IMG/VR virus record: IMGVR_UViG_3300042458_000706
Coordinates: 1-21,757 of that record
From: a virus
DNA length: 21,757 bases
Direction: 5' to 3' (one strand)
Shown here: piece by piece, positions 15,800-20,424 of the stretch
Layout of the letters: every line of letters starts with the position of its first letter
Position numbering within the stretch: the first letter of the stretch is position 1
The notes under the pieces: generated by a model
Told to the model about the DNA's origin: nothing
What the model saw: the letters and a program-made list of their open reading frames with translations, nothing else
The model's database searches: none
Position numbers and translations under genes: made by a program

Positions 15800-16795
15800 T
15801 TAGCCAGCGTGAAAAACGCCTTGGAACTGAGCGCCAGAGCAGGTCAAGTTGCCAGCCCAGCCGATCAGCTTGGTTACAGCGTCTTGATTAACAGAGGTGC
15901 GGTCACCGCCGATTGGCACAAAGTTGCGGTCTGCGTGCGGACGGAAGTGCAAGAACTTCGTATTCATGAAGTACATGGTGTTGGCACTGATAGAACCACC
16001 AATACCACCGTCAAGCACCACATCAGCGGCTTTACCCGTGCCCATGTATTTGAGCGAGGCGAAGCCAGCAGCAGCCATTTCTTCCGACGCTACGCGCTGG
16101 ATAGCTTGCAGGCTTTCCAGGTACAGACGGTAATAGTTGTTGTCAGCCACGATCAAATCAGCCGAGTCAGTACCGCGAACCAGTTGGAGTGCCAAGCGGT
16201 TCATGTAAGACTGGATGTTTGCCGAGGTTGCAGCAGAGCCGCCGTTGGTCACAGCACCAAATGACGCATTGCGCCAGAAAGTCCAAGTGGCGCGGTTGAT
16301 GTTGCCATAAGTGCCAGAGGTAGGCGCAACAGCGATAGCGGCCTGCAAACCTGTAATGTCCTTGCCACCGTTGCCAGTGCCGTTGGAATACAAACCAGCA
16401 GAAATGCGATCCATCAAGTTAGCTTCTGCCACCATGATGCGGCCTTCAACCAAATCAATCACGCGCTCTTTGCCCGCGTTCTGGAGCATTTCCAGACCGG
16501 ATACCGACACCGCAGCAGCGTACTGCTTGATATCGAACTGAGCAGCCGAGATTGGGCTGTTTGGGGTGATGTCGATCACATCGTAGCCGCTGTACGAGCC
16601 AGCGTTACGGGTAGAAGCATCAAGGTATGCCAATTCTTGCAGAATGACGTTACCGCCACTGAAAGTCTTGACGTTGCCGCGCTTTTTAAGGCGAAGCAGC
16701 AGAGCGGTGTTCTGGCTGACGTTATCGGCCAGTGAGCCGGTACGGGACTGGATACCCGCAGTGATGATGTCACTGATGTTGGCGAAGGTTGCCAT
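15800..16795 (-). CDS. Major capsid (coat) protein
   Basis: The product is 331 residues. The N-terminus (MATFANISDIITAGIQSRTG, LLLRLKKRGNVKTFSGGNVI) and the segments SAAQFDIKQYAAAVSVSG, EMLQNAGKERVIDLVEGRI and DLIVADNNYYRLYLESLQAI are the pattern of an HK97-fold phage coat family common in proteobacterial podoviruses and siphoviruses. It is placed immediately after the scaffold gene, as expected. No N-terminal delta domain or prohead protease is seen, so the scaffold is a separate protein. Shine-Dalgarno GGAG is 7 nt before the ATG. A hairpin follows the stop codon. Confidence 0.9.
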   Translation of the reverse strand: MATFANISDIITAGIQSRTGSLADNVSQNTALLLRLKKRGNVKTFSGGNVILQELAYLDASTRNAGSYSGYDVIDITPNSPISAAQFDIKQYAAAVSVSGLEMLQNAGKERVIDLVEGRIMVAEANLMDRISAGLYSNGTGNGGKDITGLQAAIAVAPTSGTYGNINRATWTFWRNASFGAVTNGGSAATSANIQSYMNRLALQLVRGTDSADLIVADNNYYRLYLESLQAIQRVASEEMAAAGFASLKYMGTGKAADVVLDGGIGGSISANTMYFMNTKFLHFRPHADRNFVPIGGDRTSVNQDAVTKLIGWAGNLTCSGAQFQGVFHAG

Positions 16796-16814: not shown

Positions 16815-17819
16815 TTAAGATTCCCAAGCGCTTTCTAGAGCTGCTCGGAGGTTGGTTGGTGCTGCGCCAGAGCCGGATGCAGGGGAGCTGCCACGTACCG
16901 ACACCGATGCGGCTTTCGCACGGTTGGCAAGGGCTGCTGACTGCGCCTGCTTTAACGCTTCGCTCCTTTGCTGTTCAAGCAAGGTTTGCCGCGTTTGCGG
17001 GTTGGCGTACACCGCTTTGTCGTAGGCGTCTTTTAAGTCTGTGGCGCGTCCCGCTTGTAAAAGCGCGGCCATATCCTCTTTGACTGCCTCAAAATGCTCT
17101 GCCGTTGCTGCGAACGCTTGCAATTCACTGTTGAGTGATTGGCGCTGCTGCTCTTGCTGAGACTGCTGGAAACTCTCTTGTTGCTGCTGTATTTGTTGCA
17201 GCCGCTGCTCAAGTTGAAACGTATAAAGGTCGGGCTGCGGAATCTGCGCGGCTTGTCCCATATCAATGCCGTACTGCTGGGCAAGCGAAGCAAAATACTG
17301 CGCACGCTGCGCCGGGTCTGGGTTGCGCAACATTGCATCAGCGCGGAGCAATGCGCCTACCGCTTGGTCTGGTGCAACGCCCAATTGCTGAATGGTCTGC
17401 ATGTAGGGCTGGATGGCTCGCTCCATGCTTCGGCCTAAGTCTGCGTGTTGCTTGAAGCCTTCAATGCCCTTGTGAAAATCCGTCTCCCGGCGCAACACTT
17501 CGTCCTGTACATGCGGAGGAAGTTTGTCGAATTCTGCTGCAGCTTCTTTCTTCCATGAGGAAGGAGGGCGCTTTTCTGGTGCTGGTGCTGGCGTTATTTC
17601 AGCGGCTGGATTAGCGGCTTTATCAGCGGCTTGCTGTGCCAGTTCGGCGGCGGTAAAGCGTCCGGCCTCGTCGCGTGTCCGTGCTGGCTTGTCTTCTACC
17701 GGCTCGACGGGTTCCGCTGGTTGCGACTGTTTATCAATTGCGGATTCCAGCACCGAGCGCAAGTCTTGCGGTTCATTGCTGGTGTCCAGGGTTGCCTGTT
17801 CACCTTGCTCTTCAATCAT
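16815..17819 (-). CDS. Scaffolding protein
   Basis: The product is 334 residues, acidic at the start and Ala/Gln-rich, with a Pro-rich linker (about 33-85), a helical centre (KKEAAAEFDKLPPHVQDEVL), and a very Gln-rich coil at about 203-232. The C-terminus is helical and basic (TLLEQQRSEALKQAQSAALA), then disordered. This composition, and the position between portal and coat, fit the scaffold that shapes the prohead and then leaves. The first ten residues (MIEEQGEQAT) and the Shine-Dalgarno (TTTGGAG) lie in the 142-bp repeat and are identical to the start of the next gene upstream. Confidence 0.85.
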   Translation of the reverse strand: MIEEQGEQATLDTSNEPQDLRSVLESAIDKQSQPAEPVEPVEDKPARTRDEAGRFTAAELAQQAADKAANPAAEITPAPAPEKRPPSSWKKEAAAEFDKLPPHVQDEVLRRETDFHKGIEGFKQHADLGRSMERAIQPYMQTIQQLGVAPDQAVGALLRADAMLRNPDPAQRAQYFASLAQQYGIDMGQAAQIPQPDLYTFQLEQRLQQIQQQQESFQQSQQEQQRQSLNSELQAFAATAEHFEAVKEDMAALLQAGRATDLKDAYDKAVYANPQTRQTLLEQQRSEALKQAQSAALANRAKAASVSVRGSSPASGSGAAPTNLRAALESAWES

Positions 17820-17930
17820 TTATTGCTCCAAATAGACAAAAAAAAACCACCCGAGGGTGGCTTGCACTGCGACTGATCGACTCAGCCCAAAACCCGCCTT
17901 ACCGCCTCTTCTGCGGCTCTGCGAATGCCT
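17789..17930. repeat. 142-bp perfect direct repeat, copy 1
   Basis: It is identical base for base to 18157-18298 (offset 368). In minus-strand order it holds the last 14 codons of the 17882 gene (including its stop), a terminator, the TTTGGAG ribosome-binding site and the first ten codons of the scaffold gene. Confidence 0.97.
17838..17860 (-). terminator. Intrinsic terminator, copy 1, before scaffold gene
   Basis: The minus-strand transcript forms CCACC-CUCG-GGUGG, extendable by G-U and two A-U pairs, followed by nine U. The U-run ends 18 nt before the scaffold ATG, leaving no room for a promoter between terminator and gene. It must be read through, antiterminated, or act as a leader hairpin. 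Confidence 0.85.
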
Positions 17931-18187
17931 GCGCGGTCTAATTCACGCGGCTTGTTAACTTGCTTTTCGTTGCCAATTTCAATCAGGCCGTGCCGCTTCA
18001 AGTGGTCACGATGCTGTGAACGTGAACTAATCCATTCACCTGTCACCATTGACTGATAGCCATGAATATCTGGCACGATGTACGCACTCTTGTTGATGCT
18101 TGGACGGCGATATTCATCTTTGGGTATCAGTTCACCAGTGGTAGGGTCTTGAACCCGGGTTGCCTGTTCACCTTGCTCTTCAATCAT
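17882..18187 (-). CDS. Small conserved phage protein with transplanted scaffold N-terminus (101 aa)
   Basis: The product is 101 residues. Residues 1-10 (MIEEQGEQAT) are encoded in the 142-bp repeat and are the same as the scaffold's. From residue 12 on (VQDPTTGELIPKDEYRRPS, IVPDIHGYQSMVTGEWISSR, SQHRDHLKRHGLIEIGNE) it resembles a short protein found in the same position, between portal and scaffold, in other podoviruses; its function is unknown. The C-terminal RRAAEEAVRRVLG is also in the repeat. Its Shine-Dalgarno (TTTGGAG) is a copy of the scaffold's, so the original 5' end of this gene has probably been replaced. Confidence 0.75.
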   Translation of the reverse strand: MIEEQGEQATRVQDPTTGELIPKDEYRRPSINKSAYIVPDIHGYQSMVTGEWISSRSQHRDHLKRHGLIEIGNEKQVNKPRELDRAGIRRAAEEAVRRVLG

Positions 18188-18298
18188 TTATTGCTCCAAA
18201 TAGACAAAAAAAAACCACCCGAGGGTGGCTTGCACTGCGACTGATCGACTCAGCCCAAAACCCGCCTTACCGCCTCTTCTGCGGCTCTGCGAATGCCT
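18157..18298. repeat. 142-bp perfect direct repeat, copy 2
   Basis: This is the second copy, starting 11 nt after the portal stop in minus-strand order. Here the C-terminal codons RRAAEEAVRRVLG are a gene remnant in frame with, but beyond, the portal stop; the terminator, ribosome-binding site and ten start codons now serve the 17882 gene. Confidence 0.97.
18206..18228 (-). terminator. Intrinsic terminator, copy 2, after portal gene
   Basis: It has the same stem, CUCG loop and nine-U tract as copy 1. It lies about 80 nt after the portal stop and 18 nt before the start of the 101-residue gene, so the small gene is bracketed by two identical terminators. Confidence 0.85.
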
Positions 18299-18309
18299 CC
18301 ATGTTTTTC

Positions 18310-20424
18310 TCATGCCACCGCCTCGTCGGATGCTTGGTCTTGTTGTGCGGTCATCACGGCATTGGCTGATATTTGCGCTACGTCGATCTTTGTTTGTGCA
18401 TCAAGCACGGCTTTGAACTTGTCAAACATCAAGCCCATCGCCATCTCTTGCTGCTTTGCGGCCGTCTCGCGGTCTTGCTTGGCGGCTTCGCGTTCACCTT
18501 CAAGGCGTGCGCGGAACTGCTCTAGCATCATTTCTTGATTCAATTCAGCCTGCATGCGGCGCTCATCGGCTTGCGCTTGCAGGGCTTCGCTTTGCTGTTG
18601 TGCCTGTAAACGCATCTGCTCGGTTTGTTGATCGGCTTGCAACTTGGCTTGTGCCGCCTGTTGCTGGGCTTGAATCTTCAACATCTCGGGGTTAGGCTGC
18701 TCCGGCTTGGGCTGCTTGGCTTTTTCTGCCTGCTGTGCAATGAACTGTTCCAGGCTGGCCTCCATCGCCTCGCCTGATTTAAACGAGCGAACGCCAAACA
18801 TAAGCATTTCACCTAAAAGCGGAGCCATTTCAGGCGGTGCTTGGATAGCCTCACGCAAGAACCCGCCCGCTGCTGTCAAGAACTCCATGCGGCTGGCTTT
18901 TTCGCCTGCCTCATCCAGTTCCACCATTGAATCAGTGGCCACTTCAATGCGAAAGGCGCGAAGTACATCGTTTTGCAGCAGTTGGATTGCTTGCTCCACG
19001 TACTCAGCGTCCTTCGTGCTTTCGATGCTGGACATTGCCACCAGTACCTCGGGACGGTACAGGCTGCACATAATTTGTGCTTTCATGCGTAGCAAGTCAG
19101 ATGCAAACCGAGCCACGTCCGACTGCAGCGTTTTTAAGCGTAGGGAAGCAAACTGACTCTTAATCTGTTGCGCCGTAGCAGTTTCAGAGGCTACCGATGC
19201 GCCTCGAATGATGTCCGATAGCCCGGTAATCTCATAAATAATTTGTTTGACCTGATCGCGTGCTGTGTACAAACCAGCTAAAGCAGTCAACACCATATCA
19301 ATCGGCATGAAGTCAACTGCGCCCTTAAGTCCACCTTTTTCGGCAAACATGGCCCATGTGGACACGGGGATAAGCGTGTTATCCACACCCTCATTCAGCA
19401 TGCGCTGGATACCCGCGTGGCTTGCGTCATATACGCCCACTACCTTAACGGCTTTTACCAGCATCGCAATGCGTGCGGTCAGCTCGTCCATTTCCTTGGC
19501 TTGGTCTTGGTACTGTTTGAAGTCAGGCACCGGCACCAGCGTGTCACTGGTCAGCGTCGCATAAATCGGCTTAGGGCATGGGAAAAAGCCTTCCAGCTCA
19601 AGCGGGTCATCCCGCACGTCCAGAATCTCCTGGAAGCCTTCAGCGTGCCAGTACACCTTTTTCTCAGACTTGCACCAGATTTCCCAGACCTTCGCCTTCT
19701 TCATGCGATCAATCTGGTCAGCGGCCATGCCGTCAGACTTCATTTGATCAATGCCAATAGGCTCGTGAGCTAAGGGCGCGTCTTTGAATATGTCTTTAAA
19801 GCGCTTAATACCCTCATCCTTGCCCATATAGACAAGGCGCGCAACCCATGTAACCTCTTCCCAAGTCCGTGCAGGTGAGTGCCGGAAATCTTCCCAATAC
19901 ACATAATCACAAGGGCTGCACTCGTAAGCGCCCATACTTTCAGATGCGCTGTCGTCTGTGATCTGTTCCGGGCTTTGGGCAGCTTCGGGCTGTTCTGGTG
20001 TATCGGCAGGCTCAAACCTTACCCAAGTCGTGCCGCGCCCGGGCAACAGGCGGTCAAGCACACAGTTTTTGATTGTGCTGTCATAGTCTGAGTAATGGTC
20101 AATCTCAAACTGTAAAGCACGCTCGAGAATCTGCGAAGCACAGCGGCCTACCGGATCAGCATCTTTGAATCTACGCTGCACTTGCGCTTTTGGCTTTTTG
20201 GCATAAACGGCAGGCATCAATGTCTGTACGTTAGACCAAAGGATGTTGTATTTACGCGAGTTGTCACTAACCCCGCGCTTATCCCGATAACGCTCAACGA
20301 TCTTGCGGCCAGCCTTAATAAAGTCCTTATCGGCGTTTTTGGCTTGGTCTAAATCAGCGGCCCACCGACGCGCCAAGCCAGCGCGGTCTTTTTCGTCTAC
20401 GCCGCTATCGTCCAACTCAGTCAT
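18310..20424 (-). CDS. Portal protein (P22-type)
   Basis: The product is 704 residues, the size of the P22 portal class. The N-terminal RWAADLDQAKNADKDFIKAG and NILWSNVQTLMPAVYAKKPK, followed by the central ARTWEEVTWVARLVYMGKDE and GLYTARDQVKQIIYEITGLS segments, are characteristic of this family. The last 125 residues (about 580-690) form a long Gln/Ala-rich coil (KIQAQQQAAQAKLQADQQTE), comparable to the C-terminal barrel that reaches into the head in P22. As a dodecamer it forms the DNA entry and exit ring. The start overlaps the preceding stop (ATGA) with AGAGG upstream; a repeat containing a terminator follows. Confidence 0.92.
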   Translation of the reverse strand: MTELDDSGVDEKDRAGLARRWAADLDQAKNADKDFIKAGRKIVERYRDKRGVSDNSRKYNILWSNVQTLMPAVYAKKPKAQVQRRFKDADPVGRCASQILERALQFEIDHYSDYDSTIKNCVLDRLLPGRGTTWVRFEPADTPEQPEAAQSPEQITDDSASESMGAYECSPCDYVYWEDFRHSPARTWEEVTWVARLVYMGKDEGIKRFKDIFKDAPLAHEPIGIDQMKSDGMAADQIDRMKKAKVWEIWCKSEKKVYWHAEGFQEILDVRDDPLELEGFFPCPKPIYATLTSDTLVPVPDFKQYQDQAKEMDELTARIAMLVKAVKVVGVYDASHAGIQRMLNEGVDNTLIPVSTWAMFAEKGGLKGAVDFMPIDMVLTALAGLYTARDQVKQIIYEITGLSDIIRGASVASETATAQQIKSQFASLRLKTLQSDVARFASDLLRMKAQIMCSLYRPEVLVAMSSIESTKDAEYVEQAIQLLQNDVLRAFRIEVATDSMVELDEAGEKASRMEFLTAAGGFLREAIQAPPEMAPLLGEMLMFGVRSFKSGEAMEASLEQFIAQQAEKAKQPKPEQPNPEMLKIQAQQQAAQAKLQADQQTEQMRLQAQQQSEALQAQADERRMQAELNQEMMLEQFRARLEGEREAAKQDRETAAKQQEMAMGLMFDKFKAVLDAQTKIDVAQISANAVMTAQQDQASDEAVA

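Follow-up and report, generated by a model that had tools for sequence, protein, structure and literature searches.

How did two adjacent genes of one phage come to begin with the same ribosome-binding site and the same ten codons? The locus that raises this question lies in the window, an entire virus record of 21,757 bases with tailed-phage head and tail genes on the minus strand. By capsid protein, its nearest named phages are Myxococcus Mx8, Stenotrophomonas BUCT555 and Bradyrhizobium ppBjS10J-1, at 52-53% identity. Among named phage genomes, the search for a near-DNA match gave nothing beyond a 266-bp, 66% match to Rhizobium phage RHph_I3_18. Along the minus strand, the order at the locus is P, R copy 1, S, R copy 2 and Q, where P is the portal gene, S the body of a small gene, Q a scaffold-like gene, and R a direct repeat. 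Q is called scaffold-like from its place ahead of the capsid gene, and family searches with it gave no match. We consider it likely that a genuine, recent local duplication took place in the window, and that the resulting repeats were unstable and yielded the order P-R-Q. The features of the locus are the following.

18310..20424, minus strand: portal gene (P); PHROG 12082 portal protein, E 3.6e-188
18188..18313, minus strand: 41-codon ORF, apparently born from the insertion; from translation, its native start being known from the P-S-R-Q contigs L006 and L007
18157..18298, minus strand: R copy 1, the putatively derived copy; small-gene 3' end out of frame, terminator, Shine-Dalgarno sequence, first ten codons of Q
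18212..18231, minus strand: intrinsic-terminator-like hairpin, extra copy in R copy 1, separating portal from small gene
17931..18156, minus strand: S, the small-gene body, without counterpart in the P-R-Q contigs L004 and L005
17882..18187, minus strand: small head-module gene with a hybrid start, MIEEQGEQAT-RVQDP...; conserved family
17789..17930, minus strand: R copy 2, in the putative native place; small-gene 3' end in frame, terminator, Shine-Dalgarno sequence, first ten codons of Q
17844..17863, minus strand: intrinsic-terminator-like hairpin, native copy, in R copy 2
16815..17819, minus strand: scaffold-like gene (Q), starting MIEEQGEQAT; putative donor of the gene start
15800..16795, minus strand: major capsid protein gene; PHROG 9953, E 1.4e-109; 53% identity to Myxococcus phage Mx8

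The repeat and its contents

The maximal exact match between the copies is 142 bp, at 17789 and 18157, with a period of 368 bp; when one mismatch is allowed, it extends to 145 nt (17786-17930 and 18154-18298). R comprises the final codons of the small gene with their stop, the terminator hairpin, a Shine-Dalgarno GGAG and the MIEEQGEQAT codons of Q. The preliminary description had reported identical copies at 17789-17930 and 18157-18298, two adjacent genes with the first ten codons MIEEQGEQAT in common, and a terminator inside the repeat. These observations hold: the copies match exactly over 142 bp, both translated minus-strand ORFs (17819-16815 and 18187-17882) open with MIEEQGEQAT, and both copies contain a terminator-like hairpin. 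The same description placed a remnant of the small gene's C-terminus after the portal stop. The DNA is indeed there, though it is read in another frame from the old small-gene ATG at 18313, which overlaps the portal TGA. The resulting 41-codon ORF runs into R copy 1 and stops at a TAA at 18188, immediately before the new small-gene ATG at 18187.

The window has no family of direct repeats of 25 bp or more other than R. In 633 kb of sequence, made up of the window and related loci, no other exact direct repeat exceeds 50 bp, which argues against a chance repetition. The pattern of the R ends, searched for at other sites, was found at this locus only. Except for the terminator, R shows no unusual RNA folding (z -0.84), an Rfam search across the repeat region gave no match, and a tRNA search found none. 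A mobile element or intron was rejected as the source, since R contains only gene ends and a terminator and no mobility gene. An exact direct repeat of 50 bp lies in the relative L002, near the contig end (14177-14226 and 14441-14490, spacing 264).

The small gene and its family

The small protein has a conserved core, D-x3-Y...G-x3-I-x-SRSQHR-x-HLK-x5-E-x-GNE, which is intact in the window. Its gene is found at this place in 34 of the 36 contigs picked by the scaffold protein alone, a count that includes four contigs from the prophage survey (L009, L013, L014 and L015); the exceptions are L004 and L005. It is also present in 26 of 27 prophages picked by the capsid protein alone, and in the remaining one (L064) an ORF carries a motif judged by eye to be recognisably similar. 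The protein has no match in Pfam and only a weak one in PHROG, to PHROG 21669, a family without an assigned function. Among solved structures, no relative was found by sequence or by fold, the best fold match having an E value of 1.1.

The N-terminus of the small protein varies among relatives, being a zinc ribbon in some (L020, L021, L022, L029, L034 and L041) and a short unrelated stretch in others (L006, L009 and L072). The zinc ribbon lies ahead of the core and resembles Zn_ribbon_8 with an E value of 1.4e-5, a match that falls short of the Pfam cut-off. These alternating N-termini suggest that the family has exchanged the start of its small gene on at least two occasions. The predicted structure of the small protein has a mean pLDDT of 81, with high confidence in the core and low confidence (55) over residues 1-10. 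The swapped start is probably tolerated, and the structural model suggests that the swapped residues are probably disordered.

Relative to L006, S carries four nonsynonymous and no synonymous codon differences, compared with 25 and 129 in the neighbours (Fisher p 0.00095). The changes that can be polarised, at two sites, fall on the L006 side. Such differences could point to a small gene decaying in the window lineage, a reading that was rejected since both polarisable sites retain the outgroup state in the window.

The boundary between portal and small gene looks like an insertion hot spot in relatives (L008, L010-L012 and L017; L028, L033-L035 and L038). In the L008 group, at least 4-5 kb of proteins lie at that boundary, one of them polysaccharide-deacetylase-like by eye, and gaps of up to 3.3 kb occur there in other relatives. 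In L008-L018, L072 and L073, a terminator hairpin whose stem differs in sequence occupies the same position between the small gene and Q, with no obvious promoter before Q.

Arrangement, polarity and age

Four close contigs were gathered by searching with a DNA pattern taken from R and with the protein of the small gene, and all the forms compared (window, P-S-R-Q and P-R-Q) are known here as assembled contigs. P-S-R-Q is the order in 3300042901_000667 (L002/L006) and 3300043436_000937 (L003/L007), at about 97% DNA identity to the window. R copy 1 is absent from L006 and L007, in which the small gene starts ATGAGAAAAACATGGGTTCAAGACC (MRKTWVQDP) and its start overlaps the portal TGA (ATGA). P-R-Q is the order in 3300033996_000448 (L004), with 6 differences from the window in 13,188 bp, and in 3300042430_000139 (L005), with 3 differences in 6,033 bp. 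Both come from separate assemblies and carry the window's own P/R junction, ACATGG/AGGC. On a near-identical background, they equal the window minus exactly one 368-bp unit, that is, one repeat plus the spacer. The R/S junction, AACCC/GGGTTC, was found in none of the other viral contigs and is present in the window only. A pattern from S matches just the two P-S-R-Q contigs. Since 6 of its approximately 226 bases differ from L006, S belongs to the window's own lineage; a chimera with the L006 lineage is ruled out by these alleles.

A native small-gene start of the form M(R/K)xxxVQDP is found in L006 and L007 and also in the more distant relatives L009-L017, L072 and L073, and it overlaps the upstream stop in L006, L007, L072 and L073. 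Q starts with MIDEQGELAT in L072 and MLEEQGELAT in L073, as translated directly from the DNA. MIEEQGEQAT thus appears to belong to Q, and the native small-gene start is of another form, which makes the state in the window derived and Q the likely donor of the start. Judged from these sequences, P-S-R-Q with a single R copy is the ancestral arrangement and the P-R-S-R-Q of the window is derived. This agrees with the earlier proposal of a recent 1.4-copy duplication that gave the small gene the start of Q. That proposal had referred the ancestral copy number to the closest relatives; L006 and L007 carry one R, and several outgroups polarise the single-copy order as ancestral.

The zero divergence between the copies had been taken to indicate a very recent event, maintenance by recombination or an assembly artefact. 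Recency is supported, on grounds other than identity, which is a weak guide because zero differences over 142 bp bound divergence only to below about 2%. At 3% divergence, as to L006, the chance of no difference in 142 bp is 0.014. In both R copies, a T-run is one base shorter than in L006 and L007, which implies either copying within the window lineage or homogenization of the copies. Recency is better supported by this private state of both copies, together with the absence of the duplication at 97% identity, which would suggest a young event.

Origin, alternatives and known systems

In an ancestor with the order P-S-R-Q, a stretch of 142-145 bp that starts close to the small gene's 3' end and reaches codon 10 of Q would have been copied about 0.2 kb upstream and inserted five codons into the small gene. 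The joints of the insertion have 0-2 bp of microhomology, and the junction sequences are most simply read as a single templated insertion, made when replication or break repair switched templates. The small gene would have lost MRKTW and the stop-start overlap with the portal gene while keeping its conserved core, and would have gained the ribosome-binding site and first ten codons of Q along with an upstream terminator. A second terminator would now stand upstream of both the small gene and Q. A ribosome leaving the portal gene could read the 41-codon ORF through the terminator to the new ATG, and might thereby suppress termination. The 142-bp repeats could then recombine or slip, with loss of the 368-bp unit and the small gene to give P-R-Q.

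This last step has a serious rival. K-mers were computed for the window form, P-S-R-Q and P-R-Q, and the window form supplies every P-R-Q k-mer up to k = 143. L004 and L005 could therefore represent collapsed assemblies of a P-R-S-R-Q genome in a clone that keeps the small gene throughout. Such a collapse, which competes only with the deletion step, is plausible without being probable. The small gene is otherwise near-universal, and its true loss in L004 and L005 would be somewhat surprising, given that practically all relatives have it. However, an identical continuous P-R-Q path was obtained from two separate assemblies, and deletions between repeats of 142 bp should be common. Either P-R-Q arose by deletion not long ago, or it is a collapse made in assembly.

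A two-step origin of the window form seems unlikely. Here, a tandem duplication of S-R would be followed by loss of the first S, or S would be deleted first and later restored by recombination with a duplicated genome. Both routes account for the same two novel junctions, and phages are known to undergo local tandem duplication (PMC9391042), yet they require two illegitimate events rather than one plus a homologous deletion, and no P-S-R-S-R-Q contig was seen.

It is less likely still that the assembler made the window form from a sample with single-copy genomes only. The length of R is near common maximum k values, and the confinement of the R/S junction to the window counts against a genuine duplication. 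However, the P/R junction recurs in two other assemblies, and overlap-merging errors would give head-to-tail copies rather than copies with a 226-bp spacer. The R/S junction has 20 to 146 unique k-mers for k = 21 to 147, all missing from a mixture of P-S-R-Q and P-R-Q. Because this junction exists in neither simpler form, the two could not have generated the window as a k-mer artefact. The preliminary description had suspected an assembly artefact in the window; that suspicion fits a different contig, since it is P-R-Q that could be a collapse, while the R/S k-mers are not derivable from the simpler forms.

We give little credence to the idea that the living population varies in its number of R-S cassettes, which would act as a natural on-off and dosage switch of a conserved head gene and a terminator in the head operon; if it were true, unequal recombination between the 142-bp repeats would give phages with zero, one or more copies. 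Least credible is a functional switch in which changes in copy number of the 368-bp R-S unit toggle the small gene and the extra terminator: single-unit and zero-unit forms do exist on a near-identical background, but the junctions seem accidental, no recombinase site is present, and relatives have no conserved repeat, the phenomenon being limited to one lineage.

A genuine local duplication followed by repeat instability is the reading that we prefer. It would make the locus an unusually clear natural snapshot of a gene swapping its start signals, with ancestor, duplication and apparent deletion product preserved at 97-100% identity. Should P-R-Q phages truly exist, a gene of the head module that almost every relative has conserved would be dispensable. 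The locus is also a warning that genes may be hidden or lost at 142-bp repeats when viral genomes are assembled from short reads.

Deletion between direct repeats arises through homologous recombination, annealing or slippage. P-R-Q resembles the product of such an event in being the window minus exactly one 368-bp unit; it differs in that the deletion in the window's clone is deduced from contigs, and an assembly collapse would yield an identical contig. Phage T4 amplifies dmd-tifA segmentally through microhomologies of 6-10 bp, and there, too, local duplication creates direct repeats in arrays that are unstable by recombination (PMC9391042). In T4, whole genes are amplified under selection, whereas the window repeats a sub-gene fragment with no known selection, and the window junctions of 0-2 bp, not 6-10 bp, led to the rejection of T4-type microhomology amplification (PMC9391042). 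Template switching as in MMBIR likewise copies a nearby stretch and leaves joints nearly without homology, although that model comes from human copy-number changes and the mechanism in the window is a deduction (PMC2621351). Recombining local duplications are well known in phages, and the duplication in the window is of this ordinary general kind, from which it differs in its size, its near-absent microhomology and the chimeric gene start that it contains.
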